DNA from: Lineus longissimus
Taxonomy: Eukaryota; Nemertea; Pilidiophora; Heteronemertea; Lineidae
Reading direction: 5' to 3'
Length of the DNA: 64,000 bases
NCBI RefSeq assembly: GCF_910592395.1
Contig: NC_088316.1
Span: 12,212,001-12,276,000 of the forward strand
The first letter of the stretch is position 1. Every line of letters begins with the position of its first letter. The position numbers were made by a program, and so were the translations under genes. Below the pieces are notes generated by a model. That model was not told where the DNA came from and made no database searches. It saw only the letters and a list, made by a program, of their open reading frames with translations. Below are positions 3,644 through 64,000 of this stretch, one piece after another.

Positions 3644-4684
3644 ATGGCTGTGTTTATGATCGCTGCGCTAGAAGAACTGGAAGGACAACGTGCTATGCGG
3701 CGAGAGAGGGTATTTCGGGACCGTGTCCATCCGTTGGACATCTATAACGATGTGGAACTTTATCAACGATATCGTTTCGATAACCATTTTGGAACTGATT
3801 GATGTGGTAGGTGATGAACTTGAGCCACAGACGTTGAGGAATCATGCTCTACCAAGTTCACTAAAACTACTTGCTGCCCTTCGATTTTATGCTTCCGGGT
3901 CATTTCAAATGGTCACAGGTGATACAGTGCACGTATCACAACCAACAATGTGTAGAGTGATTTCCCAAGTGACCCATGCACTGCTTCCTCTGTTGCCAAG
4001 AGCCGTGGAATTTCCAAGTATTGCAAATATTCCGAACATTGTCGCCGAGTTTCATGATATTGCGAACTTTCCCTGTGTTGTTGGTTTGGTCGACGGCACA
4101 CACATTTGGATTCAAGGCCCTAGCCAGCACGAGTGGCGCTACGTCAACCGGAAGAACTATTACTCAATAAATACCCAAGTCGTGATGGTGCTAGATGTCG
4201 ATTCATCAACGTGGTAGCAAAATGGCCAGGAAGTACCCACGACTCTGTGATTCTTAGGGAAAGTGCACTTCCACGAGTTTTTGAGGAACGAGCAGCAGAC
4301 GAATTGCTTTTGGGAGATAGTGGGTACCCACTGAGACCATGGCTCATGACACCTTTCCTCAATCCTAACACTGCCCAACAACGTGCCTACAACAGAGCTC
4401 ATAAGAGAACAAGATGTTTGGTGGAAAGAGGCATTGGACAATGGAAAAGAAGATTCCACTGTCTCCACGGCAAATTGAGATACAACCCGAGAAAATCATG
4501 TGAGATAATTGGCGTGTGTGCACTTCTACACAATATTGCCATCAACAGAGGGCTGCCCGATTTTGACGAACAACCAATCGAACTGCGACCGCAACCCGAT
4601 GTTGATCCAGAAAACGTAGTTCCCTTACCTGACAGAGCATACGGGGTTGGGAGAAGAAATCAATTGGTAAATGTCCACTTCTAA
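3644..4684 (+). pseudogene. Harbinger transposase (HARBI1-like), two frameshifts
   Basis: The ATG at 3644 opens a typical Harbinger N-terminus (RRERVFRDR, then LDIYNDVELYQRYRF). The frame then shifts near 3800 and again near 4195, so three frames are needed to read the protein. The helix-turn-helix region (LKLLAALRFYASGSFQ...VSQPTMCRVI) is recognisable. The catalytic DDE triad is still visible: GLVDGTHI (first D), LLLGDSGYP (second D) and LVERGIGQWKRR (E). The normal role is DNA cleavage and strand transfer at the element ends, working with the partner Myb-like protein. With two frameshifts this copy should be dead, and any mobility would depend on another copy. The domains are in the right order and the length is close to the family norm of about 350 residues. 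Confidence 0.88.
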
Positions 4685-13141: not shown

Positions 13142-13168
13142 TCTCTATTGTGTAGCCGGAAACCTTGG

Positions 13169-16021
13169 ATGATGACAAAAGTTCAGATCAGAAATAGCAC
13201 TGGATTAAGTGTTGAAAACTTTTGGCATCTCGTGTGGAGACACAGGGATTCAGTACAACGAGTTGGATCATTGGATGTTGCAGCAAAGGTGCTACTATTT
13301 CGATGCAAAATGAGAGCGAATGATGAGTTCCGAGACTTGTCAAAGGATTTTCAGATAACACCTTCCATGGCACATAGGATATTTTGGACACAACTTACCT
13401 ACAATCTCCTACATTGTTCATCGATTCCCGGGCTGTTCTGGGAGACGGACACCACAGAGGAAGAGCGCCAGGCTTTTTTTAACACCATCAAAGAACATGA
13501 GTCACCCTTCCACAAACAACAGCTGTCATTTTTTGCAGATCCAGCGGGAAATGATAGAGTAGGAGTTGGACTATCATTAGATTCAAAAAAAGTCAGAGTC
13601 CAAGGGTCAAGTGACTATGATATCCAAAAAACCCTGTACTATTCGAAAAAAGGGGGTCACTGTGTGACAATCACAACACTTGTGGACACACGGGGATATG
13701 TAGTGGCATCTTTCCCTATTGGAGCTGGATGCAGTCCACGATGTGGTGATAGTCAGCTTGCGGGACTGGAGCTCGCACGAGAAAACCAAACAGGATTCAA
13801 GTCGATCCTTATTGGGACAGAAGAACATTTCATAGTCCTGTCGGTTGATAGAGGTTACGTATTCCGCCCGCATAATCTTAATTCCCCTAATGTGGTAGAT
13901 TTTAAGCAATGGTGTATGGACCATGGCTGTCGCATTATTTGGCCCTCTGGTGGTGATGACCCAATTCTACAAGTTGTGGACGACAAAATCAAGATGATTG
14001 ACTCTGTCAATAATACTTTACTCACTGGCAACAGTCGCGCAGTAGTTGGCAAATTAAGGTTTGCAGTGGAAGCATTACATGGAGCAATCAGTGATGAAAA
14101 AATCTTCGACATGGTCCCTCATCAGTTCCTTGCACCGTTGAGCGAGACCTTCTGCAGGAAGTACGATTTTCCTATGGAGCACAAGAACGCAACAAGATTG
14201 TCCTTGATATGGTTAGCGGCAATTAACATTTACAATGAGTACCACCCGAAGTTCGAACTGAAATTCGCTGATGAAGAAAAGCAGATCAGGTTCGCGGAAG
14301 TTGTCAAGCTCCGCTTGAACAAGGACAACTTCCTGGAGGATCCACATACAGACTTGCCTGATATTACCCGCTTTCCAAGAACTCGATCTACCACATGGAA
14401 TAGTGTTCCAGCGTCTGATATCAGGGAACTGAGCAGACAACTGAATCTGCCACAAATCGGTAATGAAACTAGTGATATTCTTCTGGAGATGCCCCTTGGA
14501 CCATATCATCTAAAAAGGGCAATTCAATACATCGGGCATTTGAGACAGACAGAGGTGCACTCAGGAGAACATGGAGAACACTGTATCATATCAGACTTAT
14601 GGGACTTGATGACAGACCGCCCACAATCAACGCGGATATACTACAAGATTGTTCGAGATCAACCAAGAGGTTGGGACGCTAGCAAGTATTTCCCATGGCC
14701 GGTCGAAGGGATGACTTTTCTAACCATGAAGTTGCCATCAGCAAACAAGACGAACACAAATCCAGCCAACTTGAAAACTCCCTTAGTTGCTTTCATGAAA
14801 GAGCCACACGACTACCTTGGATTCACAGGACTGCTCCAACGTCTGTGTGGATGGAGGTGTGGATCAGGCTCCAACAACGCCGACAGTGGGTCACGTGTCC
14901 TATGTTCGGATTCGCATGTTCTTGCTTTGCTGATATTTGTTTGTGGGGGAGCTATGAGATACCGGCCAGTTATTCGAAGAGCACAACTGAGTGACCCTAG
15001 GCTTCCACTGGCACTGCAGCCGAGTTACTGTGGTTATGTAAGATCCCTACAGGGAAACACGAGGAGGAACACAACGAGAGGTGACAGGTTCCATCCGTAT
15101 TCCCGACCACCAGCCGATGACAACATAACTCATGGTCCTGAAGAAAGGGCACCAGATGTTGACATAACCATGAGAACTGAAACACCAGGCACAGACCCTC
15201 ATGATGGAGCAGCTTCAGAATTCATGGGGCTATTGAATGATGGCATGACTTGCTATTGTATAAGCATCCTACAAGTGCTGAAACATGTGGACATTAGTAA
15301 CCACATCCGTCTAGAAAACAACATAGATCGAACACTTCAAAGGCTGTGCGGAAAGATGTGTAGAGGTGCAGAACCGTTCTCAGTAATCCCACTTGTTGAG
15401 GCTGTGAACCAGTACATTGATGGAGAGGGATTTCACATTCCTGAATTCCAGGATGCAGCTGAGTTTCTGTGTGCTATCCTCCAAAGGTTGTCGGTGGAAG
15501 GAGGATATCTAACAACTTGGCCTGCAGACATTATGTGTCCTTTAGGGCACCAGACTCAACAGATTGTTGGCACAAGGGGTGTCTTGCGTCTTAATGCCCC
15601 TGTTACTGATGTATTCTCAATAAATGAGCTCTACATACAGCATTTCCAGGGATTAGGTTTCAATGAAATGCCATGCAACTTTGAGAATCGAAACCGCTTT
15701 TGTGGAAGACTAGGACATGGAATTCAAACTTGTGTGCAAGGGCAAATATCCATAATAGAACTGAATCGTAGACCTGATGATCATACTGTCCACATCAAAA
15801 ACATGGCTGTGATTGAAGAAGCAGAAGACTTAAATGACCAGGTCGTAACTGCTGTTGTGTGCCACTGTGGGAATACCTGGAATGATGGACACTGGATTGT
15901 CTATCTGAGGGACCAAGAGAATGTATGGTGGAAACTGAATGACCACCATCCAGCAAGAAGAGTCTCACCATGGACTGAGCAAGGAGAGGCACTGTCAATC
16001 AATATGATATTTTTCAAATGA
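13169..16021 (+). CDS. DDE-transposase-like domain fused to a ubiquitin-specific protease (USP) domain
   Basis: This frame opens right after the TAA at 13139-13141; the first ATG is 13169, giving about 950 residues. The N-terminal third has a helix-turn-helix (LSKDFQITPSMAHRIFW) and an RNase H-like transposase core: LSLDSKKVRVQ as first Asp, VLSVDRGY as second Asp, and further acidic residues in a helical region. This resembles the DDE_4 group. The C-terminal ~270 residues are a peptidase C19 (USP) domain: Cys box GLLNDGMTCYCISILQ, QQDAQEF-like FQDAAEFLCAIL, His box NDGHWIVYLRD and LNDHHPARRV, with FY-like FFK at the very end. The nucleophile Cys, the His and a polar third residue are all present, so the fold could be active. 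USPs remove ubiquitin from proteins. It lies within the TTAA-flanked terminal repeats. Confidence 0.8.
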   Translation: MMTKVQIRNSTGLSVENFWHLVWRHRDSVQRVGSLDVAAKVLLFRCKMRANDEFRDLSKDFQITPSMAHRIFWTQLTYNLLHCSSIPGLFWETDTTEEERQAFFNTIKEHESPFHKQQLSFFADPAGNDRVGVGLSLDSKKVRVQGSSDYDIQKTLYYSKKGGHCVTITTLVDTRGYVVASFPIGAGCSPRCGDSQLAGLELARENQTGFKSILIGTEEHFIVLSVDRGYVFRPHNLNSPNVVDFKQWCMDHGCRIIWPSGGDDPILQVVDDKIKMIDSVNNTLLTGNSRAVVGKLRFAVEALHGAISDEKIFDMVPHQFLAPLSETFCRKYDFPMEHKNATRLSLIWLAAINIYNEYHPKFELKFADEEKQIRFAEVVKLRLNKDNFLEDPHTDLPDITRFPRTRSTTWNSVPASDIRELSRQLNLPQIGNETSDILLEMPLGPYHLKRAIQYIGHLRQTEVHSGEHGEHCIISDLWDLMTDRPQSTRIYYKIVRDQPRGWDASKYFPWPVEGMTFLTMKLPSANKTNTNPANLKTPLVAFMKEPHDYLGFTGLLQRLCGWRCGSGSNNADSGSRVLCSDSHVLALLIFVCGGAMRYRPVIRRAQLSDPRLPLALQPSYCGYVRSLQGNTRRNTTRGDRFHPYSRPPADDNITHGPEERAPDVDITMRTETPGTDPHDGAASEFMGLLNDGMTCYCISILQVLKHVDISNHIRLENNIDRTLQRLCGKMCRGAEPFSVIPLVEAVNQYIDGEGFHIPEFQDAAEFLCAILQRLSVEGGYLTTWPADIMCPLGHQTQQIVGTRGVLRLNAPVTDVFSINELYIQHFQGLGFNEMPCNFENRNRFCGRLGHGIQTCVQGQISIIELNRRPDDHTVHIKNMAVIEEAEDLNDQVVTAVVCHCGNTWNDGHWIVYLRDQENVWWKLNDHHPARRVSPWTEQGEALSINMIFFK

Positions 16022-17486: not shown

Positions 17487-18629
17487 TTTTTGTTTTGGCC
17501 CCCTGGTGGCCCAGTTAAGAATCAGACCAGACCGAAAATCAGTGTCACAGGTCATCTGACCTAGGGAGTCATGTGTACCAGGTTTAAAGTTCATAGCTTT
17601 AGTGGTTAAGAAACGTGCCATAGTTACACACAAACGGCCAATTCACACCATTTGACCTCTGTGACCTTGAAAATAAGGTCAAATCAAAAACCGTAGGATA
17701 TGTGATGTATCCTTGCTCTGAGTACCTACCATAAAAATAGAATTGAAAACAAGTTACTATTATTAAGCGAGATATTGCACTTTATACTTTTTTTTGTTTT
17801 GGCCCCCTGGTGGCCAAGTCGAGAATCAGATCAGACTGAAATTCGGTGGATGTAGGGAATCAGGTGCACCAAATTTCAAGTTCATAATCATAGCTTTATT
17901 GGTTGAGAAACGTGCCCCAGTTACACTCAAACGGCAAATTTACGCCATTTGACCTCTGTGACCTTGAAAAGTAGGTCAAATCAAAAACACGTATGATATG
18001 TGATATACCCTTGCTAGGAAAACCTACCATAAAAATTTCATCAAAAACAAATCACTAATAAGTGAGATATCACACTTTTTAGATTTCCACTTTTGGCCCC
18101 CTGGTGGCAAAGTTAGGAATCAGATCGAACCAAAATTCAGCACCAGAGGCTATGTGATATAGGGGGTTATATGTACTAAGTTTCAAGTTCATAGCTTTAG
18201 TGGTTAAGAAACGTGCCATAGTTTACACTCTAATGGCCAATTTACGCCATATGACCTCTGTGACCTTGAAAACAAGGTCAAATTAAAAACCCGTATAATA
18301 TAAAATGTATATTTGCTATGAGTACCTACAACAAAAGTTTTATCGAAAACAAGTCACTAATAAGCGAGATATCACACTTTTTAGATATCGACATTTGGCC
18401 CCCTGGTGCCCAAACAGAGAATCAGATCGGAACGAAAATCAGTGTCAGAGGTCAGCTGACCTAGGGCATTTTGTGTACAAAGTTTCAAGTTCATAGCCCT
18501 AGCAGTTAAGAAACGTGCCACTGTTAGGATATGACGACGACGACGACAACGACGACGACAACGACGACGACGACGAAGGACACAGCGCTATCATATAGAC
18601 TCCCCTTACGGTGAGCCAAAAACTAGAAA

Positions 18630-44612: not shown

Positions 44613-47600
44613 ATGGCAAATGTTGAGGTAGGTCATATCACAATATTCACAAGTGAGTTTTGACTAGCTTGTCTGTGGATCGTGAATTCTGTGTTTATAG
44701 TACCTCATGTACATATATCTTGCAGTCTTTTCTTAAACAGTGGTGAAATTGTAATTTAGGTAACTTTCTTGGTCAAAACCCCCCCCCCCCCCAATCACAA
44801 CTATTTTTGCTTATGCAGAGAATATCATTGACAAATTAATGGCTTAATTCGTTACTTTTTAGAACCTTGCTGATGACATTCAAAGGATGAATATTCAGGT
44901 ATGTACACTAATGCAAATTATGATGAACACGGGTCTTCTTCAAACTCACCAACTCGTATCTAGACACTTTATTTACCGGTACCTCACTACAAATCTACTC
45001 TTTTCTACTCAAATTCTGCACAAATTCTCTAAAGTCAAAGAACACGCCGTTCCGTTCTCACGTGCCGCTACCTCGACAAGTCCCAATTAAAGCGGCTGTC
45101 ACCTTCAACTTCTATATGGCATGGCGCGCGGCCACCACAAAATTACAAATTACAAATCATATTGCATCTTAACATGATCTTCAATTTCATGTTTAAAATG
45201 TTTATTTTGGTTCGTTCAGTTTGGCTTGTTTCATTTGGCTCGTCTCAACTTTTGTATACTATCCTGAGCAAATGTGCGCCTAACAGTACACCACTCAATA
45301 GAGGGCAGTATGAGGCCACAGTTCGATGTCGTCTGATAAATGCCAGTTTTGAAAAATATTCAGAAAATAAAAACCCGGCTTTGTAAAAACATTCTCGGTC
45401 CCGTCAAAGATATATACATGTATCAAGATTGGTGGAGATCTGCCCATCGGTTTAAGAGAACATGATAAACTATTTATGATTGGCGCGAGCGCCGTTTTTG
45501 AAAGTGTTCTAAGGTTTGCTCTGTGGTTGGCTCATGGTAAGGAATCCCACTAGAGAATACCGGTGCCGGTCTAACCCAATCTTATCTCCAACTTGTACTA
45601 ATGAATATCAAAATCGACAGGAAAAAGAAATTCTTGCCTTCCTCTTTTTTTAGGAAGGGGATTGTTTCTTCATACATGAATATGAAGGAGATGATGAGGG
45701 AGACAGGGAAAGCAGATTTCTTGAAGCTGTAAAAAAGACATTGGAGGAAGATGGATTTAAACTAACCCTGAGTAGATGGAAGCCTACACCAGGGGAACCG
45801 GAATGCAAGGTTCTGGAGAAAATTCTGACCCTGGATCATGCCAAGTTAATTCTTGCCTTCCCTGAGAAATATCTCTGTGAGGAAAAGCTGGTGGCAACCA
45901 TTGATAAGGTAATTCATTTCTACTGAAATCTTAATGCTATCTTGGCAGGCTAAATATTAGGTGTGATTTAACAAATTTTGTATGAGTATTATTTATTATA
46001 ATCTCACCCCTAATGAAAGGGCCAGTCAGCTTTGGCTTATGAGACACTCTAATCTTTTCTTCCAAACTCCTATCTCTAATGCCAGGCGCCTGGTGAGAAG
46101 GCAGTTTCTAATCTAGCCTATTATATTTAACTTCCTTGCGGCTAACAAACCGGCCACATCAGTAAGAGGTTACCAGCGGGCCTCGGACTTTCAACCTTCT
46201 GTAGAATGAGTGACACACCTGAAACTTCTGTGGTGTGGTGACCTAGTGTAGGGGAGGCTCCCTAGCGATTTTGGGCCCAACCCTAATACCAAAATGGCCG
46301 CCAGGCCGCCATCTTTGTTTTCGCATTCCGCCCCATAACTCAAGAACCAATTGAGTGACAGACCTGAAACTTCAGTGGTGTAATGACCTAGTGTAGGGGA
46401 GGTTCCCTATCGATTTTTGGCCCAACCCTAAATCCAACATGTCCACCAAGCCGCCATCTTTGTTTTCTCATTGAAGCTCACTTTAACTTGCCGGTTTGTC
46501 AGTGCCTATTTAGTCTCCCTCTAGGAGGCATCTTAGGATTGTTCGTTTACAATCTATGTTGCAGATCCTGAAGCGAGGGCTACACTTCATTACAGTCATA
46601 ATGTACAGCGACAAGTTTCTGGAACTTCCTGCTGAGTTGAGGGAGTTTGATATGAGGAGAGTGGAAGTGGACAGAAAGTGGATGGAAGCAGATGACGCCG
46701 AAATGGATAAGATTGCCCTGACAGCGAGTGATCTTCATCCATTTATCAGAGGTGCGAGATGGTGTTGTTGATGATGGAGTAGGCTCAATGCATTGTGGCT
46801 ACACACCACTAATAGATTTTAAGCCATTTTCCTTTAGACATCAACTGCAACAACTTTTTCCCAATATCTCACTCAAACCTAATATTTGCAGGGCAGAAAG
46901 ACCTCACCCAGGGCAAAAATCCACAGAATTTTTGATTGATTTATATGGTCATGACCATGATAATTTCAGGGTTTGGGGGTCTGAAGTTTTTGGGGTCATT
47001 TTTGTCTTAATTTAAAGCCTCAGCGGGTTATTTGATCCCCAAATCCACGCCGGTGAACACATGAGGCTCAAAGTTCATCAGAATGTTCGCCAGAAACAAC
47101 TTTAATTCATGATATGAGAGATTACTTCATTCTGATTGCAAAGATAGCACCGTTAAGTCAAATTACTACTGGATTGAATAGGCATGTTGTTTTTCTGATG
47201 GTGACATTGTTAATCTCTTCACACTGTGGATTCATTGCTTACTGATCTCTTTCAGATGAACCTGAAACAGTTGATCTAGCATTTCTGAACTCGGGGATTG
47301 GTCTTGCTTCGTCCTATCATTTTGGTTATCTCCAGATGATCCTCATGCCTGATAAAAAGGTTTCAGGTAAGTGTAGTTAAGCTTGGTTATTTATTCTAAA
47401 ACACCAGAGTGGGAATATTTTATTTTCATAATGGACAATGTATGTAGCCTCGTTTTCACCACAGAGGTTTGGATGAGACAACCCAAATCGCTTGCGTTGG
47501 TGCAAAATGTGGATGCAATTCAAAACCAATTCAAACCACGTTGTCCGTTGGCAAGGCACGTTTTGTAACTGCTGGAGCTATCGACTTGAAACCTGGTTCA

Positions 47601-50600
47601 TACGTTCCCCTATATAATGACACATGGGAAACCAAATTTCGGTCTGGTTTGATTCCTGATTTTGCCACCAGATGGCCAAAACCAAAAACACAAAAAGTGC
47701 TATATCTCCCGAACTGTGACATGTAGGTACTGTGAAAGGTAGGTACTGGGACACATAGATAGGCCTTCTGGGACACATAGGTACTGGGACATGTAGGTAC
47801 ATGGACACTAGGTATAGACCCGTCAGATTTGCCTCCCCTTCCCACTCTTTGAAAAAATATCTTTTTCCTTGTTACATGTATTTTTGCGGGCTCCTTGACA
47901 CATCACAAATCTGTACAGTAGTCTCTTTAGGAATTCTGTTTCAAGTCAACACTCAAGTGATGAGTGACAGAGTGACAGTGACACTGTCTGCCATGACTTT
48001 AGTAAACAGGTAAACAGGATAAGTCATGACTTATCCTGTTTCTTTTTTGACAATTACAAAATAGTAACTTATTTCATTTCGTTACTGATCACTCTAATTC
48101 CACTTTGTATTAAAATACTGCAGGTTTTGAAGACAGAATCAGGAAGTCGGAATGGAGAAAGAATCACCCTGAAATTCTAGACAAGAACATTTCTAAGAAG
48201 ATGATCATTGTGTTTCCGCAGGACTGCAGGGAACCAAAAGAGATGAGTACTGATCCTAAAATAAAGCCCAATGATCGTATAACGTTCTATGAAAACAAAG
48301 TGCCAGTGCTTAGGGCAGGGATCGATAGGAAATATGACTTTGACTTCCGGCAAATCAGATCAAAAAATGGTGAAGAGGTCAGTACAGTCAAGAATTATTG
48401 ATAAAGACTAGTCTACGTGAGTTCTTGGTGCAATGCATTAACCAGAAGGTGTCAGAATGTATTTGACACACTAACTGTTGTTATTGGGTGAAGACTTCTT
48501 GGAAGCTGCCAGTGACAGAAATCAATTCCGAAGGTCCCTCGCCCTTTTGATAGCTTAAACCATCATGTTGCACAAAAGAAGGAAGAAGAAGATGTAATTG
48601 CAAAAATCTATTCATAGTGATGTAGAGGCCATGTAGAATTAGTGGAATGAGCGGAATAAGCAGAATGAGCTGATTCTGGGCTTCGATCACCTGGAAAAGC
48701 CAGTACTTGTCGCGATGATCGTCGCCATGCCTGAACTCTGAAGACAAAAGGAGGTATGGTAATACAGCGCCTCACACGGCTACCGAATGAACTAAACTGT
48801 CCCTACAGACCAGTTTTCATGACCTCATTGCGAGTCATGGCTTAACGACTGTAAAAAGCGATTTAAAAATAATCTTTGTGGTGTATCGAACAAATTAAAA
48901 CTTAATTCCGCTCTTTCCGCTAATTCTACATGGCCTGATGTAGATTAAAATTTCCCACTTTTAATGCATTGTGTCTGACATCAAGGGAGTTTCCAAATCA
49001 CAATTGTTTTCAGAGTGATGTCATTTTATCATTTTCTACGTGATGGCTGCTGTTAAAATGAGCTGTGTGTGGCATGATTAGTGCTGGCATGATAAGCTCA
49101 CCGTAGGGGAGTCTATATGACACCACAGTGTCCGTCGTCGTCGTTGTCTGTATCCTGTTTCAAAAACAGTGGCACGTTTCTTCACAGCTAGGGCTATGAA
49201 CTTGAAACTTTGTACACATGACCCCTTAGGTTAGGTGACCTTTGACAGTGACTGTCAGTCTGATCTGATTCTCGACTTGGCCACCAGGGGGCCAAAAGTT
49301 AAAACCTAAAAAGTGCGATATCTTGCTTATTAGTAACTCATTTTTGATAACATTTTTACGACAAGTACTCCTAGCAAGATATCGAACACCGAATTTCAGT
49401 CTGATCTGATTCTCGAATTGGGCACCAGGGGGCCAAAACTGAAGAGATAAAAATAGCAATATTTTGCTTATTAGTGACTTGTTTTCAATAATATTTCTCT
49501 GGTAGGTACTCCAAGCAAGGATACATCACATGTCATAGAGGTTTTCGATTTGACATACTTTTCAAGGTCACAGTGGTCAAATTGTACGAATTGGCTGTTT
49601 GAGTCTAAATGTGGCACGTTACTTAACTGCTAAAGCTGTTGAGGTGAAACGTGGTACACATGACCTTCTAGGTCTGATTCCCAACTTGGCCACCAGGGGG
49701 CCAAAAGCGGAAACCAAAAAAAGTGTGATATCAAAAGTGAGAGTGGTCATTATTAGCTGCGTGTTAAGCACTTGACAGATTGGTCATGTCAAAGAAATTT
49801 CACTGATTCATTCAGGAAAGTTTCCTCCGTAATGTTCTACAAATATTTTGAGGACAGGTGCATCAAAAATCAGATGCCATAAAATCATGCTGACTTACAT
49901 GTGAGAAAGTATGTTTTTCTGACATGTTTACCAGGTGCGGCATTCGGCTTGGTACAAACGTTGACATCATTTTTTTTCCCAGATGACGACGTCATCCCAG
50001 GCCACGTGAATGAATGACGAATTCTGCGATTTTCGCAGTGATATAACTCATTGTATTGTTTAACATTATAAAGATGTCAAATTAGAAAATGTTGAAAATG
50101 TCAGTTCATCTTTAACCTCTTGAATCCCAAAACTTGAAAATCCCGGGATCCCAGGGTGGTCACGTGGTTGCGAAATTGGGTCTGACTTTCACGATGTATA
50201 GCACCCGCGTACAACCGCCAAAGTCCGGTAACGAGGCGCCATCCACCCAGGCATGCTCTAACTGACCCTACTGTACATCAAACACGCTAAAACAAGCAAT
50301 AAACTAGCGTCCAAGCTCAAGGGAATAAAAATATCACTGAGACTGACCTGTCGGTCGTTGAGAAAAAACGTTATTTCAAAATGACCGACTGGTCGGTCAC
50401 CGGGATTCAAGAGGTTAAGCCAGTAATGTGAGAGTGTTATGCATGACACATGTATGTCTTTCTCTCCAGTCTTTCTATGGTGTGGTCTACTTCTTCAACA
50501 TTGTTCAGGCCTTGACCGAAATGAGGGATGATCCTAACAAGGACTTCTGTAATCTATCTGAGGAAACAATGAAGAAAGAAGGCAAATACTGTTTCGAGAA

Positions 50601-53600
50601 GTTGAGGCTCTTTCTGAAACACACTTCACCAAAGATTCCTGAGGAGACCTATGAACTGATTGAACACAATCCTGAAAAGATGCCAGGTGGTAGGTTTTTT
50701 TCGGATCTCAAAATGAAATTTTTTTAATGCTTTGTCAGTAGTCTTGCACACTGTTGCACAGTAGTAGACCAATTAGTATGGTTTTTTTTTAAAAACTTTT
50801 TGGCTCACCGTAAGGGGAGTCTATACGATAGCACTGTGTCCGTCGTTGTCGTCGTCCGTCGTATCCTGTTTCAGAAACTGTGGCACATTTCTTAACCGCT
50901 AGGGCTATGAACTTGAAACTTTGTACACAGCACCCCCTAGGTCAGGTGACCTCTGACACTGAATTCCGGTCCGATCTGATTCTCAACTTGGCCACCAGGG
51001 GGCCAATGGTCGATATCTAAAAAGTGTGATATCTCCCTTATTAGTGACTTGTTTTTGATGAAACTTTTGTTGTAGGTACTCATAGCAAATATACATCTTA
51101 TATAATACGGGTTTTTAATTTGACCTACTTTTCAAGGTCACAGAGGTCATATGGCGTAAATTGGCCGTTAGAGTGTAAACTATGGCACGTTTCTTAACCA
51201 CTAAAGCTATGAACTTGAAACTTGGTACGTATAACCCCCTATATCACATTGCCTCTGGTGCTGAATTTCAGTTTGATTTGATTCTCAACTTTGCCACCAG
51301 GGGGCCAAAAGTGGAAATCTAAAAAGTGTGATATCTCGCTTATAAGTGACTTGTTTTCGATAAAATTTTTATGGTAGGTACCCTTAGGAAGAATACATCA
51401 CATATCGTACGGGTTTTCAATTTGACCGACTTTTCAAGGTCACAGAGGTGATATGGCGTAAATTGGCCGTTAGAGTGTAAACTATGGCACGTTTCTTAAC
51501 CAGTAAAGCTATGAACTGGAAACTTGGTGCATATAACCCCCTACATCAGATAACCTCTGATGCCGAATTTTGGCTCGATCTGATTCTTTATTCGGCCACC
51601 AGGGGGCCATAATGGAAAAAGTAAGAAGTGCAATATCTTGCTTATTTTTAATGATTCGTTTTCAATAACATTTTTATGGTAGGTTCTCCTAGCAAGGATA
51701 CATCACATATCATATGAGTTTTTGATCTGACCTGCTTTTCAAGGTCACAGAGGTCAAATGGCGAAAAATTGGTCGTTTTATTGTAACTATGGCACGTTTC
51801 TTAACCACTAAAGCTTTGAACTTGAAATTTGATACACATGACTCCCTACGTCATGTAACCTCGGACACCGAATTTCGATCTGATCTGGTACTCAACTCGG
51901 CCACCAGGAGGCCAAAACTAAAATAGGTAAAAAGTGCAATATCTCGTTTATTATTGACTTGTTTTTGATGATATTCTTATGGTACTTACTCCAAGCAATG
52001 ATACATCACATGTCATACCGACTTTGGTTTGACCTATATACTATACATGTACAATGTTTCTTAATCTGGATGAATTACAAAGCACCAGATATCTATACGG
52101 TGAGCACAATGGCCACTGGCCATTTCATTATTAAATCTTTTAATTTAATTACAATGATTAGATTGTTCGAACATGATTCTTTAAGTGTGGCAATGTTTAT
52201 CTGTGGTCACTTGACTTGTTTTTGATGTGAGAGGGTCATTGTTTTAACTTACCTCACTCATTGTTTTTTTAACCATTTGAGTTGTTTTGATGGACCTGGT
52301 TGCTGTGATATCTTTAAACAGGTTGCCTAGGCAGGCCAGGTGTAGTTTTTTAGGCTTTTGACCAGCTTGTGACAGTGAAAGTTTTGTGGTCAACATGTTG
52401 CCTCGGCAAAGTACTGCATATAAAATGGTTGAAGGCAAAAGGCAGACCGTCACTTGAAAAAAACTTGAAATGGATGGTGAATGGGACTTCAGGGATGGTG
52501 TCTGGTCTGAGTGCGTGACAATACATAGCGTGTACGTGTGTCAGTCAAAGATGTGACACACTGCACATTGTCAGATGTGTTTAATGGTCTGGCTACATGA
52601 AAAGAAAAAAAGGAGAACGTGCTGTTTATACATGCCCCTGTAGCTGTTGTCAAGAAAGTGAAATGTCAACTTTCCCGCAAATTCTTCTTGGTAAACGAAC
52701 TTCAATTTCCTGCGGAATTACGTCCGACAAAATGAACCAATCAAAACTGAAAATGTATGATTGGTCAATTTACTTTCTTTGTGTGATCTTCAAATGTATG
52801 TCATTGACTAATCTGAACAAGTTTAACATTGTGCTGGGATTTTGACCTTGACCTTAATTCCAAGGTCACAGAGGTCAAACTCTAAAATTTCACCGATACT
52901 GACACGCTTTGTCATTATTTGTCCCAGACTCTTAAAATTCGATTTTGTAGACACCTAATAGTCATCTCCATACGTTGACAAATATTCAGGTCAATGTGAC
53001 CTATTTTTCAGGTGTAAAGAGGTCAAGGTCATAAAATTTTGTGTGGGCCACATCTCAAGAAACATTTTTAATGTGCAGTGATCTTCAAATGTATATCATT
53101 ATTTGATCAAGCTTAACATAGTGGTTGGAAAATTTTGACCTTGACCTTATTTCCAAGGTCACAGAGGTGAAACTAGGTGTAACCTTAACGATCCTTCTTC
53201 CTTTCATTGACAACAGGTGAGCACATGGCCCCTGGCCATTCCATTTTTCAGTCAATTTTAAAGATTAAAAAAGCTTTTATGTATCAAACGCAACTGTTTT
53301 GTTCCCATAAGCAGCAAAATGTTGTACCTTTCTTCTTTTTTAGTGGGCAAGAAATTTTCCAAATACATAAACATAACAGCTAAACCCTAAGGGTCATGAG
53401 GGCAAGCTTGATAACATTGAATTCTATGAAACATGATTCATGGCGATATGAATAAAAACTAGCAAATGCTTTTCTCTAAAAATCAATGTACATTTACAAT
53501 AGGCCTTTCAGTACAAAATTGAAGTAAAAGAATTTGCTAGTCTTTATTAATATCACCCGATGCTGATAGGGCTAAGCCAGTGAGGGCAAATAAACGTGAT

Positions 53601-56600
53601 GCAAACAAGGTGCTTAACTCCAACTGATCAAAATCGGTCTTTATTGCCAACAGCACCTTCCATGCGGAAACTCTTCGATCTGCATTCATGCCAGCCCAGT
53701 ATTATTCCAAGACTCTCCATTTTTAAGTCTAAAGCCTCATCATGATGCACGTCCCTTATTTTTCAGAGAATGCTCTTGCTGACAAAATCTTTGACTGCCT
53801 CAAGAGAGGTCCAACCTTAGCTGATCCCCCTAAAGATGCCACTAAAGCAGGCGAAAGGGAAACCTCAGATACGAAGGCTCGTGACCGTAAGACCAATGTT
53901 CTGTGCTCTATAGAGTCCCTCTCTAGCCAGAAGATGCCGGAAGATGTAAAAGCATTCATACAGAGCGATGAAATCAAGCGAGATGAGTGTATTCCTGGAA
54001 TGGCGGAAATCGACTATTACACGAAGCTGATTGAGAAGTCTAGTAGACTGTTCATGGTCTTGACAGATGAATTTGTGGAATCTGAATGTTTCGAATTCGT
54101 GTTCTACTCTGTTTTGAATCAGGTTTTTGAAAAGAACGATAGGAGGTAAGATATCCTTTTCAATGAATGAAAAGAGGGCTTCCAAAGTCACCAACAATGT
54201 GAACATTACGGCAAGTCTGCACTAGAGATCTAAAGATTATTACTACCTGATATCCTTCACATTTCCGTTATCAGTATTAATTACGGCTCATTCTACCAGT
54301 TGCCAGCATGAGGTCCATTGATTTGCTTGGCAGTGGCAGCACACCAGTAAGCAATTTTGTTTACTCCCAGACCAAAGGTAGATTACGTAAGATTGCTACA
54401 ACTGCTATCAGAGTAATCAGGATTATGAAGAAAACTCAGAAAGAAGGACGTCAGAGATAAAATGTTATTGGTGAAAGTTTCTCTAGTGGACTTGGCATAA
54501 TGAATTTTTCAACAATCTCTTAAGTCGCTTACCACGTACAAAAAATTGGCTTCGGTTTCGACAAACTCTGCTTGACTGGACACCTCCAGCTGCGGGACCA
54601 GAAAGCCTGGAAAACTGTTGCGCTAAACATCATTCTAGACAACCTTAGGAGTGGTGTAATCCGTAGACAAAGCTGGTTCAAGATTTTTTGGTATAACATG
54701 TTGATATAATCCAATGTCTTATTTCAGGTTCTTGGTAGTTCTTGACTGCCTCCAGAACATGATGGGCCACCCAAAGGCACTTGAACTACGTTTGTTCTTC
54801 TCCTATATTAGCGTCAAGGATTGTAATTGGGAGGACAAGGTCAAGAAAGAGCTTAGAGGTCAGTCAAAAAACTAGTAGTCGAAAACGAAGTATACCTGGT
54901 AGTCTATCTAAAACTTCCTCTGATGATTGATATTAAAGGGAACTGGAACCGCCGAGCGATTTATTCAACTTTTCGACTTTCACCGCCCGAGAAAGTCAAA
55001 CTTTCAACTTCCTATTCGAGTTCAGATTTGTAGCTCCGCCCCCAGTGCCCGAGCATGCGCAGTTCAATTTTTTATTATTGAGAATCATGTGAGAATCACG
55101 TGAGTCATGCGATCTTTCATTCATGAGTTTTCGTAGTAAATTCCATAGTAGTGACGTCACTCAATGATTGACAGCTAGGCGCCATGTTTCATTCATGCCT
55201 CGTTCTGAACACCCGATACGCGGGAAATGAAAACGAGGTCATACGAACTGGCTTGGCGGTTTCAGTTCCCTTTAATGGGTAGAGCAGGCACATGTTTGCT
55301 GGTCTGAAACACTAAGAAGGAGAAATGCCCTGCTTGATGTCTGCATGTAGGAGCCTGTGCAACCTCCTCGACAAGACATAGACTCACAGGGCAGCAGTTT
55401 ATTTGTCATAACCGTGCAAGAACCTCCAGGTGATCCAAATTGATTCACCACTTGGCCACCAGGGGGCCAAATTTTGAAAACTTGAAAAGTGCTAATACTA
55501 GTATTAGTAGTCCTTTGCTGCCAATTTGCCTGAATTCCATTTCATGAGTGCCTCTAAGTGCAACGCGTAAAATTCCAGGCTACATTCCTGAAATTTGTCA
55601 ACATCTAAAAAATAAATACTGAAAGCCACCAAAGTTTCCCATTAGTAATCCATATGAAGTACTGAACATGATGAAGGTCTCTTAAAAAATGTTGAAAAGA
55701 ACTTAATGAGAAGAAAGTTTTTCAGAAACAGTTCTTATAACCCTAAAGGACAGTTGGCAGCTCTAAACATGTCACCCACATCCTCAATTTGACTTTTCTT
55801 TCAAAGTCACACATGTCAAATCGACTTAAATTGTCCGTTAGGTTTTTGTAACTAATAATACAACTCTCAGTTGAAGTTAAACCGGTGAGCACAATTGCCC
55901 TTAACCATTTCATGAATTCCACTTATTATTTAATTTGGTCCTTTACAGGTGACAAGTTACCTGTGACAAGTGACCTGCAGTTCCTAAACATGGGAACTGG
56001 CTTCGCTATGAGTTGGTACTACAGATACTTGAAATTTAGGATGCCAGGTAAGTGTTATTTGGCTAGGGTGAGGCTAACCGCAGCCAGAAGGGGTTGTTCA
56101 TCACCAACGCTCTGATTTTTCGGATCAGATCTGGTGTGTTGGGCTGGGTAGCCGTTGGGCTGTTGCTCTGGCATAACACCCTCATGAGAAGAGAATAGGA
56201 AGATGACTTGAAGAAGACATGTGACGCGTTTTAGCAAAACCAGTCGCATGTCGCACATAAGATGAGCCTAGATGACACAAGGAGATAATAGAAGAAATTG
56301 ATGTCGTCAGATTACACAAAAAGCCGACAATAGTGAAATGAACAAACAGTCCGTCTCAACCTGCCAAGCTCAGAGCGACATGCGACTGGTTTTGCTGGAA
56401 CGAGTCACACATGGTAGTGTCGAAAGCTAGTCTCAATAAAATTGTATGTCGATTTACAAAAAATGGTGTTATTTTATACATAACACCATCATATACAATG
56501 TGTTTTAGTCAGTTTTGCTTAAAGTAAAAAGACCTGCCCAAGGTCACTGACATTTAGTCAATGTCAGTTGTGAACCAACATTTTCTAGTTTAGAACTGTG

Positions 56601-58570
56601 GCATAAACCACTAGGCAGAAACCATGTTCGAAATGAATGTCGTTTTTTTTAATTCCATCAATTACAGTAATTGTTGACTTGTTCCGCAATTGTGAATTCT
56701 TGATGGAACAGTTTCAAGCGGGAAGGATGTCGCACAAGACGTTTATCCTACAACCACATTCTTGTCTCGTTCCCGAGTCGGTGACAAATGCCGATTCAAA
56801 AATCCAGAAAATTGAAAACAAGGACATCAAAATGCCGAAAATCATGAAAGCAACACGAAACTATACTCCAACTCTATATAAAATTACAGACGAAAATGGC
56901 ACTGAGGTGAGGGTTCTCTTTACGGCAGTAGTTGCGCTTCCACCTTGTAAATCCCCGTGTTTTTGCCCTTCCATCTTTGAATTGCCGAGCTTAAATCTGT
57001 AGTTCCTTAGCACGGCGACAGATGGCGCGTTCGATTTCTGTAATTGCTGTCCCTACGGCGCATGCGGGATTCACACTTTCTAACCTCCATCATTTACAAA
57101 ACACAGGAGAGGTACTAACTGCAGCGGCACCTGTCGCCGCATCACAACGGGTGTCGAAAAACCCAGGGATTTTGGATAGGTGGAATTAAGAGTAGTAATA
57201 TTGCACATTATGTGGACCAGGCACTTAATGGTTATGCAAAGGGTAACTAAAAAGAATTGGATACCATTTCACCCGATTAAACATGTTTTCCTTGCTTTAA
57301 ATTGGTCAATCTCTACGTACTTTAGTTGTTCATATGTTTAAGAATCAACTACAATTGGCACCTTAGCATTGCAACTAGCATCGGCTTGTGGCTAAAATCT
57401 TCAGTATAAAGATATATTAAGGCCTATTAATATCGAAATTATTCCTTTCCAGTATTATGCTTTCCTGGAATTCAATACCCAGGCTGATACAATGCACAGA
57501 ATGTGTGATCGTGGCTTGCTGACCAATTCAGTCATGTTGACAGAATGGGAGAGATTCTTCAACAAACTGAAGATGCTCATTTGCCATAAGAAGGAACCAA
57601 TGCAGTTGAGAGAGAGGCTGACAACTATTGAATACGATGGTGATTATTTATTCTTAAATTTTGGTGCATTGTGTTTTGTCCCAACGAAACTCATCCAGGG
57701 GCCTGAAAGATTTTTGACGCGAGGGAAGTTTTTTTCAACGCTGATTTTGAAGGACTAGCATCGAAGCAATGCCTGGTCGATTTTTTTAGCATATTTCCTG
57801 AGATTTCAGAAGATAACAGTTTATGGGGATTTACAGAACCAAATTCTATCTTTTGGGAGATATTTCCGAAATTGAATTTCAAGCAAATTTTATATGCAAA
57901 CTCAATTTCAGGAATACATTCCTCATCAGATTGTGCCCTAACTATGGCTGCTTTTACCCCATTCAGGTTTTCTATTGCTTGTGGGTTGTCTTCCTGGACT
58001 CATGCATGAAGAGGGATTCAAATATGGATATTTGAGTCCGGTATTTTTTTTTGGCGGCTGCATACAATTTGTACACCTTGTTTGTGCCTGCATGTGCTTA
58101 GGCAAGGCGGTATTGGAAATGTTGACAATTTTCTTTGAAATCGCAAACCACAAAGAATATGAAACTTTGTGTGAAATTCATGCATCCGCTGGAGATAATA
58201 TGCACCAAATCTGGATCCAAAATCTCAATAAAAAAATGGACCAAAATGGCAAAAATTTATTTTTGATACTGTCTATCCCCAATTGGATTTGACGTAGTTC
58301 CACATGCAACTATAATCTTTGAACAACAGCACATTTTTTCGTCAATTAGTTACCTCCTTTTAGGCCATGATCGGGATTGTAAACTTTTTCCCAAAACAGG
58401 ACCCCCCATATTCAATGTGCGTCGGCTATTTTGCAGATGAAAACATGAAAGCACCTGGAGAACTGTCCAAATTGGTGATGCGCTATGTCAAGGATGAAAT
58501 AAAGAAAGAAAATGGAAATTTACCAAAGTCAATCGAGACTGGTGCTACCATACACAAATGGGAACAATAG
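44613..58570 (+). CDS. Double TIR-STING protein (TIR-STING-TIR-STING), 13 coding exons
   Basis: Exons: 44613-44627, 44863-44898, 45654-45908, 46565-46751, 47256-47366, 48124-48377, 50470-50686, 53767-54145, 54728-54858, 55949-56047, 56668-56906, 57453-57639, 58437-58570. All have GT-AG borders with matching phases, giving about 747 residues. The ATG lies in CACCATGG context; the acceptor TTCAG at 44553 starts its exon, so a 5' untranslated exon lies upstream. Domains: TIR-like residues about 18-165, STING about 166-358, TIR-like about 359-528, STING about 529-747. No signal peptide or membrane helices are visible, unlike vertebrate STING. STING binds cyclic dinucleotides and TIR domains signal or cleave NAD+. 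TIR-STING fusions are known from bacteria and oyster; two fused units are unusual. Exon 7 could instead end at 50689. A split into two genes is the alternative. Confidence 0.8.
45654..46751 (+). other. TIR-like domain 1 (exons 3-4)
   Basis: Two exons. The strand-helix pattern matches TIR: DCFFIHEYEGDDEGDRESRF (betaA and the following loop), FLEAVKKTLEEDGFKLTL (alphaA-betaB), CKVLEKILTLDHAKLILAFP (alphaB-betaC), then YLCEEKLVATID where the NADase glutamate helix would sit, and LHFITVIMYSDKFLELP (betaD). Glutamates are present in the alphaC position, but the usual W-C-x-x-E spacing is not kept, so catalysis is uncertain. It precedes STING domain 1 directly, as in other TIR-STING proteins. Confidence 0.65.
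46140..46510 (+). repeat. Intronic element with duplicated ~125-bp unit
   Basis: Two direct copies (about 46205-46325 and 46350-46470) share GAGTGACA..CCTGAAACTTC, GACCTAGTGTAGGGGAGG and GCCGCCATCTTTGTTTTC. The pair is bracketed by AACAAACCGGC and its inverse GCCGGTTTGT. Intron between exons 3 and 4 of the TIR-STING gene. Confidence 0.75.
48012..48041. repeat. Perfect 30-bp palindrome without loop
   Basis: The 15-bp half AAACAGGATAAGTCA is followed immediately by its exact inverse, centred on TCATGA. It lies in the intron 83 bp before exon 6 of the TIR-STING gene. Confidence 0.9.
49092..49735 (-). mobile_element. Family-A element, inverted, truncated
   Basis: Begins with GCTCACCGTAGGGGAGTC and a GTCGTCGTCG microsatellite; three units follow. 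The GAAACGGCC terminus is missing. Inside the intron between exons 6 and 7. Confidence 0.75.
50804..52131 (-). mobile_element. Family-A element, inverted, full-length
   Basis: Both termini present: GGCTCACCGTAAGGGGAGTC near 50805 and ACGGTGAGCACAATGGCC...GGCCATTTCATT near 52131. Four ~300-bp units lie between. Each unit has CAAGGTCACAGAGGTCA, that is, AGGTCA direct repeats spaced by 3 bp. It lies in the intron separating the two TIR-STING halves. Confidence 0.85.
52840..53253 (-). repeat. Related repeat with GGTGAGCACATGGCCCC terminus
   Basis: Two TTGACCTTGACC...CCAAGGTCACAGAGGT units and the terminal AGGTGAGCACATGGCCCCTGG end, without the CCCCTGGTGGCC core. It is a sister family to A, related to 42040-42270. 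Confidence 0.65.
53767..54858 (+). other. TIR-like domain 2 (exons 8-9)
   Basis: ALADKIFDCLKRG looks like alphaA, then a polar insertion of about 50 residues. This is followed by the characteristic DECIPGMAEIDYYTKLIEKS (BB-loop to alphaB), SRLFMVLTDEFVESECFEF (betaC-alphaC, Glu present) and RRFLVVLDCLQN (betaD). The first strand (betaA) is not encoded in these exons. Either it is lost, or a small phase 1-1 exon lies unseen in the 3-kb repeat-filled intron 50687-53766. The RFFLVV junction between exons 8 and 9 is phase 2, unlike the phase 0 junction in TIR domain 1. Confidence 0.65.
54937..55271. mobile_element. MITE with TTAA duplications
   Basis: The termini AGGGAACTGGAACCGCC and GGCGGTTTCAGTTCCCT are inverse, flanked by TTAA at 54933-54936 and 55272-55275. 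335 bp, no frame. The TTAA specificity matches that inferred for the 15.5-kb transposon, but the terminal sequences differ. Intron after exon 9. Confidence 0.9.
55440..55915 (-). repeat. Degenerate family-A remnant
   Basis: CTTGGCCACCAGGGGGCCAA at 55452 and the terminal CCGGTGAGCACAATTGCCC...CATTTCAT at 55882-55915. The middle is degenerate. Confidence 0.6.
55949..58570 (+). other. STING domain 2 (exons 10-13)
   Basis: GTGFAMSWYYRYLKFRMP matches the STING ligand helix; the Ser162 and Tyr167 positions are kept, but Tyr163 is Trp and Gly166 is Arg. FILQPHSCLVPESVTNAD is the core strand. ATRNYTPTLYKITDENG keeps the Arg238 and Tyr240 positions. YYAFLEFNTQADTM aligns with VLEYATPLQTL and keeps the Glu260 and Thr263 positions, with Gln for Pro264. 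The last exon (58437, acceptor TTTTGCAG) encodes DENMKAPGELSKLVMRYV, matching the final helix of STING. The stop at 58570 leaves no long interferon-signalling tail. Confidence 0.85.
56205..56425. repeat. Intronic inverted repeat (~40-bp arms)
   Basis: AGCAAAACCAGTCGCATGTCG at about 56233 is inverse to CGACATGCGACTGGTTTTGCT at 56376; the arms extend to ACATGTGACGCG / CGAGTCACACATG. MITE-like, between exons 10 and 11. Confidence 0.8.
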
Positions 58571-58734: not shown

Positions 58735-58740
58735 AATAAA
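58735..58740 (+). promoter_or_regulatory. Poly(A) signal of the TIR-STING gene
   Basis: AATAAA 165 bases after the stop, followed by a GT-rich element (GTTGTTGTGTATTG), which supports 58570 as the true end of the gene. Confidence 0.7.
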
Positions 58741-60323: not shown

Positions 60324-62795
60324 TTAGAAGTCTTGCAGAAGCTGGTCCCTCTTTACGACGAGCAGATGGCACAGGGAGCTGCAGAGCTTATTAGAGATGC
60401 TTATGCTTGCTTTAGATTCAAGTTTAATCATATTGTCAATATTATCAATAGTTAAGTGGTTGCTGTTGCTAGTGTAGTTGTTGTTGTTGTTATAGTGTAT
60501 GCCATTCAGTGTATGCTTGTCTACTTTATAGCCCCAACCGTTTATGATTGCAGAGCATTTCTCCCCCCCAGACCGTGGCGGCCGCTTGCCTTCGTTATTG
60601 TAGACTCCACACAGTTCCTGGGTCAGCGGTTCTCGCTCGCTGTTGAGTGCAGGACAGTCAACCAGGAAGTGGGCCATGTCTTCCTCCTCTCTTTTACATA
60701 GGGGACAGCTGGTGTTCAGTTCCTTCCCATATCTTGCTCTGTCTGTCTGGACCGCGGACCTGCCAACCATTATTCTCGCTCTGGAGGTAGCTGCTAAGGT
60801 CAGGTGTGCCCTCCCTCCGCAGGCTAGCCACATGGGGTGTGGTTTACCCATCCATGATGTGCCGACGATCAACCATTTCAGAGTGCTTTTCCCCTGTGCC
60901 TCCTTTGCGAGCAGACCGTGCCAGTGTTCTGATACTACCATAGATGTATGGCCTTTCCACGCCAGCTTTGGCCATGGGTACTGGAGGGCCCGATGGATAT
61001 CAATTCCATACCTTTCCCCTATTGAGGCTATCCCACTGAACCAGCTTTTTGAGCTATCTTCTTTGATCGCAAGTTGCCTCATGGCAACCTGCCGTAGAGG
61101 GTTGGATGTGGGCAAGCGGGTAATGGCCCCAAATAGCGAGAGCTGTCTCAGATGGATGCTGGCTTGTATTGGTTTTGTTCCAGATAGAAGATGAACGGCA
61201 GCTACGGCGGTGTTCTCAGAGAGGCCCTGGATGAGGTGAATGGTCTTACGGTGGAAGAGGTTGAGTTTTGTCAGTTGTGCGGTTGTTGGAATTGTTGTCT
61301 CTAAACCATGGATTAATCTAGGTAGTATAAAAGTGTCATATAGCTTGAGGGACGCTGGCGGATCAAGGCCGTTATGACCATGAAAGCCAACCCCCATCAG
61401 GGCATACGCGGTTCTTCTTGCTAGCTTGATTCTTGGTTCAATATCTGGGCAGGGTTTTCCCGCCTGCCATTGGAGGCCGAGATGGGCGAACTCATCTGTT
61501 TTCGTTACCTCACGATCCTCTAAATACCATCTGGTGTCTTTGCTTGTGTCTGACTTCGGCTGGTGGTGCGGGCACACCACTGACTTGATAGGGTGGAGTT
61601 CATATAAGTTTGTGACAGAGTGCACGCTACATACTGTCATCATTGCTTGTAGCTCTGTGGGCAGTGTTGAGAGGAGCAGCAGATCATCCGCACATCCGGG
61701 GGTACCAATATATACTGGACCTATGTGCATACCAAGTCTGGCTTCTGCTAGCGATGTGGCCAGGTCGTTTGCATAGAGCTTGTAGAGTGTTGGTGACATA
61801 ATTGCCCCCTGTCTCACCCCCTGGGCTACCGTGAACTCTCTACTGTCGTGGCCAAGCCATCTGATCGTCTCTGTGCTTGTCTCGTATAGGTCATCCACCA
61901 GGCACCAAAGCGACCGTCGCATTGGGGTGTTGTGCAGTTTTATCTTCAGCCTCGCATGGGAAACCACATCGAAAGCTTTCCTTGCATCCAGGGAGCAGAT
62001 GAAGAGGCTCTCTTTTCTCTCTTTTGATTCTGCAATGGCCTCTGTCACCAGCAGGGAAGCCATGGCCGGTGAGCGTCCTTTGGTGAAACCATACTGTAGG
62101 CCACTTTGCTGCTGGTTAATGTCCTCAGCACAGTGTTTGAGACATATGTGTTCGAGCAATTTACCGAAGATGGAGGTGATGGTTATGCCCCTATAGTTGT
62201 CCATGATTAGTGAGTCTTTTCCCTTTTTGGCTATTGGAATCTTGTAGGCTGATTTGATCGCCCTAGGTGCCCTCCTCCGTTTCAGGATAGTGTTGAAGAT
62301 GCCGGTCAGGTGTTCTAGTGCTATTTGTGAGCAAGATAGCAGTTTTAGGTGCTCAGCTTTATAACCTTCCTTGTCAGCTGCTTTCTTGCTACTTAGCATG
62401 TTTATAGCATCCTTCACGCTTTCTGTGTTGATGAAGAGGTGGTCCTCTTCCGCCTTTGCGTTCTCTCGTATATGGTCTAAGATGTACTCGAGGTGAGGTT
62501 CGGCTGTCTTAGGTGTCGCAAGTCGTTCGTAGTTCTTGGCCCATTCGCTTCTAACGATGTCGGCATCTGTTGTTACCTGGCCGTTCACTCTGATAGGGCT
62601 GGCACCCGTTTTTTCTTGTCTTTGTTTTGCTACAATCTTATAGAATAGGGCATCGTTATTGGAGGAGGCAGCTGAGATTTGCTGCAGGAGTTCATCTCGG
62701 TCGGCAGCGCCTTCTCGTCGCTGGATCTGTCTGATGCGCCTTGAGTCCTTTTTCTTGTTCAGCCAAGTTTGGTGCGAAACCTCTCGGGCTGCCTG
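60324..62795 (-). pseudogene. LINE reverse transcriptase region
   Basis: Open from a frameshift near 62795 to the stop at 60324, about 820 residues. RT motifs run in order: KKAADKEGYKAEHLK, YKIPIAKKGKDS with DNYRGITITSIFGKLLE, QYGFTKGRSPAMASLL, SLDARKAFDVV (first catalytic Asp), AQGVRQGAIMSPTLYKLYAN, and GCADDLLLLS (the usual F/YADD is CADD here). A C-terminal CCHC-like knuckle CPLCKREEEDMAHFLVDC follows. Its role would be target-primed reverse transcription. The clade is not assigned. The RT frame itself has no break, but it is out of frame with the endonuclease, so this copy is likely dead. Confidence 0.88.
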
Positions 62796-63690
62796 CCTCT
62801 TTCCATAGGTAGAGGCTTGTCTTTGATGCCTTCACCGCTTCTGCCAGTAGTGGAGACCATTTCTTAGGTTGGCATCTACTCTGCTGGGCTCTTACTGTCT
62901 TGTAGGGTACTGATGTGAGGGTAGCCATGTTGATTGCCTCCTGCAGGGCAAGCATCGCTTCCTCTGGGTCTCTATCGGTGGTGGGTTGCTGACGGAGCCT
63001 ATCTTCCAAAGCACTGCAGAACACGTTCGGGTCAGCCTCTGTGAAGTCGTATATTTTCCTACTGAGTTGCTTCTCCCGTACTACCTCCTTTGATGGCTTT
63101 ACGGGCAGTAGAGGTACCGTGGTTGATGCTAAAAGTGGTAGGTGCTTTGAAGAGTTGAGCGATGTATCATCTTCAATAACGGCTGGAGTAGACCAGGCTG
63201 AGTTTGTACCTGGGTGGGCTCGGAAACATATGTGATCGATTCTTGAACTGTGGCCGAGGTGAGGGTTGATGTATGTCGACTCTCCTGTCCCCGTGTCACT
63301 CAGGGATAGCTCATTCATTAGTGCAATGAATCGTCTTTCCTTTGGCCCCTTGCGGTGGACGTGATCTTCATTTAGATTTCCTGCAATGATGATTTCGTGA
63401 TCTTGACCAAATTTCGTAACCAACTCATAAAGTTTGTCCGTGTCCTCCATGAAGGCTCCAAAAGCCATGGTGCTTGTGCCGGATGGGAGGTAACAATTTA
63501 TTATGCACATTGGTCGCGCAGGTAAGTGGCACAGTGTTACGAGAATTCTCTCGTTCCCCTCATCATTGATCTTTCTGATGTAGGGGCTGAGCCATGGGGC
63601 CCATAGTGTTGCTACACCACCTCTCCCCGCACTGTGCCGCATGTTCCCATCCTCCTGGGGCGTTTCACCTGCACTCCCTGCGGGGTGAAT
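62795..63690 (-). pseudogene. LINE AP-endonuclease region, 5'-truncated and frameshifted
   Basis: GRGGVATLWAP, then VTLCHLPARPMCIINCYLP, IIIAGNLNEDH (in place of GDFN), and SSRIDHICF with KHLPLLAS (in place of SDH), that is, the C-terminal two-thirds of an exonuclease-endonuclease-phosphatase domain. A one-base shift near 62795 (after LYLWK) moves translation into the RT frame. Confidence 0.8.
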
Positions 63691-64000
63691 ACATTACCTT
63701 TTGAACAGCTGGCTGTAGGGGGATGATTGGAACAGCCGGTATACCTGCTGACCTGCTGAACCCAGATAAATGTTATTTTCAATCCACGATTGCAGGTCAC
63801 CTGATTTTCGAGATTTCGCGGGAAATTGTAAACAAACGCATGTGTGCAGTTCAAATGTAAACAAAAATGTATTTTTGGTACTTTTGGTTGCTGGACTTGG
63901 GTTTTCCCGCAGTTAGGAGCTGGGGTCAAATTGGCGGTCTATTGTTTATGGGTGCTGTTTAAGTCAGAGGTAGCCCTTGATTATGAAGGGATTTTCAAAT
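63691..64000. other. Flank of the LINE
   Basis: No gene recognised. The minus-strand open frame across 63612-63929 has no domain support. Confidence 0.3.

Follow-up and report, generated by a model that had tools for sequence, protein, structure and literature searches.

Does one gene of the ribbon worm Lineus longissimus encode two complete TIR-STING units in a single chain, or have two neighboring genes been joined by gene prediction, and, if the chain is real, how would such a receptor work? The question is raised by LOC135493862, which occupies positions 44613–58570 on the + strand of the 64,000-nucleotide stretch of genomic DNA analyzed here (the window, in whose coordinates all positions are given). 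Animal transmembrane STING, exemplified by human TMEM173, is a homodimer with membrane helices and without a TIR domain; STING has been studied as a symmetric homodimer, and its natural ligands include some that lack symmetry. The reading that we favor, and whose prospects we consider evenly balanced, is that of a single gene for a soluble, membrane-free, single-chain tandem TIR-STING receptor that would be asymmetric and would signal by TIR scaffolding, with a mechanism that we infer from the features described below.

Gene structure of LOC135493862

As originally proposed, 13 exons can be spliced from the window into a single open frame whose first stop is the TAG at 58568–58570, with GT-AG borders in all 12 introns. 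The NCBI model has the same exon coordinates, and splicing of the window sequence with an exon 7 end at 50686 yields a 747-residue protein identical to isoform X2 of LOC135493862, a public entry named only “uncharacterized” that may itself be a prediction. An in-frame stop lies upstream of the start codon (44562), and a candidate poly(A) signal, AATAAA, lies 3′ of the stop codon (58735–58740). Overlapping donors at the end of exon 7 (GTGGTAGGT, 50687–50695) also permit an end three bases later, at 50689, which gives a protein of 748 residues; the 747- and 748-residue isoforms would differ by one glycine.

All exons lie on the + strand. In the spliced model, exon 1 (44613–44627), with the start codon in CACCATGG context, and exon 2 (44863–44898) precede exons 3 (45654–45908) and 4 (46565–46751), which encode the first and second parts of a TIR-like domain (TIR1), each assigned with TIR_2 matches below the cut-off. 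STING1 begins with a stem helix in exon 5 (47256–47366), matched by STING_LBD and with the same phases as exon 10; its core, with the R232, R238, and Y240 equivalents identified from STING_LBD and a pocket alignment, is encoded by exon 6 (48124–48377), and it continues through exon 7 (50470–50686, alternative end 50689; NCBI isoform X2 uses 50686). Exon 8 (53767–54145) is assigned, with approximate borders, to a probable last helix of STING1 (to ~53807), a linker (to ~53906), and the first part of the second TIR-like domain (TIR2), the second part of which, in exon 9 (54728–54858), is placed by alignment with the oyster TIR-STING protein 6wt6. The remaining four exons are assigned from STING_LBD to STING2 and encode its stem helix (exon 10, 55949–56047), its core with the R238 and Y240 equivalents (exon 11, 56668–56906), the region of the E260, T263, and T267 equivalents (exon 12, 57453–57639), and the last helix and stop codon (exon 13, 58437–58570), the pocket alignment being used for exons 11 and 12 and the spliced model for exon 13. 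The chain is thus predicted to have the order TIR(-like)-STING-TIR(-like)-STING, as had been claimed, and we refer to its two TIR-STING portions as units 1 and 2. It had also been described as free of membrane helices, and no sign of one is found in the 747-residue chain by Kyte–Doolittle analysis in 19-residue windows (highest mean, 1.14).

The window holds several repeats and open frames outside the coding exons. Tandem arrays with a unit of ~302 bases, containing the motif GGCCACCAGGGGGCC or its complement, are found at 50875–52018 (in intron 7), 17493–18520, and 7102–8246. A 959-residue open frame at 13142–16021 has a weak match to a transposase helix-turn-helix (19.8 bits, cut-off 27) and a match to a ubiquitin hydrolase domain (UCH, E 3e-12), and from its sequence is possibly a transposon with a captured deubiquitinase; just before it, ~10 copies of a 75-base repeat (12287–13007) lie in an open frame spanning 12146–13141. 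Two overlapping open frames are present at 3672–4684, the second of which matches DDE_Tnp_4 (DDE transposase, E 7e-29), the first having no profile match at E 0.001. Finally, two long open frames on the − strand (60324–63693) resemble, by reading of the sequence, a LINE endonuclease and reverse transcriptase.

Two STING domains and a paralogue with the same layout

Both of the cyclic-dinucleotide-binding STING domains that had been claimed are recovered by profile search, with scores well above the curated cut-off of 27 bits for Pfam STING_LBD (PF15009). STING1 scores 52.7 bits (E 4.2e-14) with unit 1 alone and 55.4 bits (E 6.3e-15) when the start of exon 8 is added, STING2 scores 70.9 bits (E 1.1e-19) with unit 2 alone, and the whole chain scores 124.6 bits (E 3.9e-36). 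In sequence searches of the PDB with either unit, STING entries are found throughout the best 60 matches listed. The best match of unit 2 is oyster TIR-STING 6wt6, which aligns over residues 66–359 (E 9.6e-15), starting in the interior of the TIR domain and continuing through the whole of STING, and which supports the proposed relation to the oyster proteins; the match of unit 1 to 6wt6 spans STING only. Judged by this alignment, which runs from TIR into STING, and by the lack of a membrane helix, unit 2 is of the animal TIR-STING type.

A protein search (7991 scored candidates) returned one other protein, LOC135496214, which is 690 residues long, is encoded on another contig, and has the same predicted domain order. 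It contains two STING_LBD stretches when scored whole, with unit 1 alone above the cut-off. Unit 1 of LOC135493862 matches unit 1 of this paralogue at 37% (E 1e-49), and unit 2 matches unit 2, also at 37% (E 2e-73); within LOC135493862, units 1 and 2 align well over STING only, at 27%. Since the two genes match unit by unit at about 37%, the tandem would predate the split of the genes; most simply, the gene was copied after the tandem had formed. Gene prediction accordingly has the join between units at two loci in the same genome.

TIR-like domains without a catalytic glutamate

The TIR assignments are the weaker element of the model. Against a Pfam TIR_2 cut-off of 28 bits, unit 1 scores 13.2, unit 2 scores 15.0, and the whole chain scores 24.5 bits, all below the cut-off. 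Of the two TIR-like domains in the original prediction, the second holds up through its alignment with oyster TIR-STING, and neither reaches its profile threshold. The label of TIR1, for which no profile's cut-off was reached, derives from its place before STING, a predicted alternation of strands and helices, and subthreshold matches. This alternation is clearest in a low-confidence model of the paralogue (strands 8–12, 34–37, 63–69, and 92–97, with helices between); the profile scan of the paralogue lists no TIR family.

Profiles were also built from the two genes. For TIR2, four of four PDB matches are Toll-like receptors (E 0.07 to 1.5), and a weak profile–profile alignment with the oyster TIR falls in the right place (E 0.078 over 36 columns). 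Comparable assignments for TIR1 were set aside: its four PDB matches are all triosephosphate isomerases at chance level (best E 0.3), its profile–profile alignment with the oyster proteins lies in the wrong domain (E 0.039 over 20 columns), and the comparison of TIR1 with TIR2 gives E 0.32. A single weak alignment running from TIR into STING connects unit 2 of LOC135493862 with unit 1 of the paralogue (19.7%, E 3e-5).

The catalytic column was located by a W-x-x-x-E mark in helix C, which we take to contain the catalytic glutamate of TIR domains. In this column, the TIR2 domains of the two genes have V and I, versus E in six of six oyster proteins; the TIR1 domains have I in both genes, in an alignment that is less certain. 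With that reservation for TIR1, the four TIR domains of both genes are, as aligned, without the catalytic glutamate. The column bears directly on the idea that LOC135493862 encodes a ligand-switched TIR NADase like bacterial TIR-STING, with which it has the TIR-STING order in common: because glutamate is absent from this position in all four domains, again with an uncertain alignment for TIR1, an NADase role is unlikely, and we consider a receptor working in the bacterial manner very improbable. We infer a scaffolding role for these domains.

The join lies probably inside exon 8

The original prediction set the join between the units at the boundary of exons 7 and 8; it probably lies inside exon 8, the first residues of which fit the last helix of STING1. 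The intron between these exons was dropped as the unit border on the full-chain model, which has a helix at residues 359–371 where STING2 has its last helix, and tests of exon 8 followed. The AlphaFold full-chain models are of low quality (mean pLDDT 48.2 and 43.5, from 7-row alignments); structure prediction, which had been suggested as a check, contributed this helix in a model of low confidence (mean pLDDT 48.2).

When the start of exon 8 is added, the Pfam match of unit 1, which otherwise ends at position 160 of the 182-position profile, continues to position 176. We also scored unit 1 against a profile that combines unit 2 of the two genes with other STINGs, with shuffled tails as the control: the addition raises the score from 58.8 to 63.3 bits for LOC135493862 and from 46.4 to 49.6 bits for the paralogue, the real score being reached by 2 of 500 and 1 of 500 shuffled tails, respectively, in a test with small margins, a reference that includes unit 2 of both genes, and a shuffling scheme that leaves a generic amphipathic helix possible. 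For the gene pair, none of 150 shuffled tails reaches the real score, by a narrow margin (119.75 versus 119.63 for the best shuffled tail). For the paralogue by itself, the Pfam match stops short of the last helix. A join inside exon 8 is supported but not proven.

The intron layout permits a further comparison. In STING2, intron 12 falls between the last helix and the remainder of the domain, and the phases of introns 4, 5, 6, and 7, around and inside STING1 (1, 1, 0, 1), equal those of introns 9, 10, 11, and 12 of STING2. The paired introns are close, not always in the same column: introns 6 and 11 are one alignment column apart; introns 5 and 10 are five columns apart, across a gap; introns 7 and 12, in the same phase, are seven columns apart (5 and 6 residues); and introns 4 and 9 fall 9 versus 11 residues before a shared FLN. 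If the join inside exon 8 is right, one uninterrupted exon would encode the end of STING1, the linker, and the start of TIR2.

It is at this junction that the alternative of two neighboring TIR-STING genes, each encoding an ordinary homodimer and joined by gene prediction, must be weighed. Intron 7 is the longest intron (3077 bases) and contains AATAAA at 53451 and 53589, and an in-frame ATGATG (53742–53747) directly 5′ of exon 8 would permit a separate downstream start. However, exon 8 appears to hold the last helix of STING1 followed by TIR2, such that separate genes would leave unit 1 cut short and unit 2 with an orphan helix, and the same join is predicted in the second gene on another contig. 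Moreover, neither a last exon for unit 1 nor first exons for unit 2 were detected within intron 7 (best E 0.24), in a search of limited sensitivity by which short exons are easily missed. We regard a merger of two genes as improbable, an estimate that we raised slightly because introns 7 and 12 are seven columns apart and the last-helix margin is narrow.

Pocket residues are divided between unlike halves

We aligned the pockets of the four Lineus STING domains with human STING, five oyster-type proteins, and one other solved STING, at positions that we take to be the ligand contacts of the human protein. Human positions 162 (S), 167 (Y), 238 (R), and 240 (Y) are kept in all four Lineus domains, which in this respect and in the ligand-binding domain itself resemble human TMEM173. 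At other positions the two halves differ, and they do so in the same way in both genes. Unit 1 keeps Y163, G166, and the 232 arginine and is changed at 260, 263, and 267, with N at 263 in both genes; unit 2 keeps E260, T263, and T267 and has P at 242 and K or D at 232, in a loop that is hard to align. Identity of pocket positions between the genes is 8/13 for the unit 1 pair and 9/14 for the unit 2 pair, compared with 70/168 and 82/195 overall, the pocket counts being small. The oyster proteins also differ from the human protein, with G at 263 in two of five and G at 162 in four of five, and therefore single residue changes say little; the division of the pocket between the halves, shared by both genes, is suggestive and not proof.

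Without the E260, T263, and T267 equivalents in unit 1, and with K or D at 232 in unit 2, ligand binding could have been lost. These changes, together with four TIR domains that are without the catalytic glutamate, give some weight to a degenerate regulator, in which ligand binding would have been lost from one half or both, leaving a protein that would restrain other STING or TIR signaling as a decoy or brake. Retention of the S162, Y167, R238, and Y240 positions in all four domains argues against this, as does the identity between the genes, which is higher at pocket positions than elsewhere, on small counts, and we consider such a regulator unlikely. Because the pocket residues are divided between the halves and all four TIR domains are without the catalytic glutamate, the sequence does not point to a simple symmetric dimer assembled in advance; the halves are unequal copies.

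A model for an asymmetric single-chain receptor

In the single-chain receptor that we favor, STING1 and STING2 would form a V-shaped pseudo-dimer by folding onto each other within one chain, and one cyclic dinucleotide would be bound between two nonequivalent half-pockets. Closure would then bring TIR1 and TIR2 together, and the paired TIR domains would serve as a seed or scaffold recruiting TIR adaptors or further chains; NAD+ would not be destroyed, since the catalytic glutamate is absent. More tentatively, the receptor may be asymmetric by construction, with two diverged STING halves forming one unlike-sided pocket that would accept a mixed dinucleotide (such as 2′3′-cGAMP or 2′3′-cUA) in one fixed orientation, and with nonenzymatic tandem TIR domains as the assembly seed.

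The chains might instead pair with other chains, as STING1–STING1, STING2–STING2, or crosswise, such that the tandem would be a linker for receptor chains or filaments. Two sensor units would give each chain a valency of two, and bacterial TIR-STING is described, in the available portion of its report, as forming filaments of parallel stacked dimers (PMC9402430). A complementary pocket split within one chain, common to both genes, would on the other hand be used most simply by a STING1–STING2 pair, which could still form across two chains. We consider pairing between chains possible, if somewhat doubtful.

Relation to known TIR-STING proteins

The oyster (Crassostrea gigas) TIR-STING proteins (PDB 6wt6 and 6wt7) have one TIR and one STING domain per chain, versus two of each in Lineus, and glutamate is present at the catalytic position in six of six oyster proteins compared, unlike in the Lineus TIR domains. 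A STING domain is likewise fused to a TIR domain in the annelid Capitella teleta, a member of another lophotrochozoan phylum; this comparison is by description, and the accessible part of the source makes no mention of a tandem (PMC6723221). Bacterial SfSTING (PDB 7un8) resembles the Lineus protein in its TIR-STING order and is described, in the text available, as undergoing ligand-driven assembly; it differs in having one unit per chain and an active NADase with catalytic E84 (PMC9402430). Animal TIR-STING proteins have been proposed to have arisen independently, and eukaryotic TIR-STING fusions are called rare, in the available sections of a further report (PMC10732462).

The exact domain order had been thought undescribed, and this view stands among the literature matches listed, drawn mostly from non-subscription sources, in whose titles and abstract openings no tandem STING is found; the protein sequence is publicly available under the label “uncharacterized.” In the excerpts retrieved, the phrase “two STING domains” is used for the dimer or for two separate proteins, and a search for Lineus longissimus together with STING, which covered mostly non-subscription papers, found none. 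As far as the accessible parts of these sources extend, this kind of fusion is known from oyster and Capitella, and what Lineus would add is the tandem layout.

With LOC135493862, the lophotrochozoan TIR-STING proteins, represented by oyster and Capitella, would gain a ribbon worm member of unusual layout. As a natural single-chain receptor with unlike halves, it would allow the contribution of each side to be tested without engineered heterodimers and, if the asymmetric-by-construction reading is true, would be an exception to the rule by which STING forms a symmetric homodimer.
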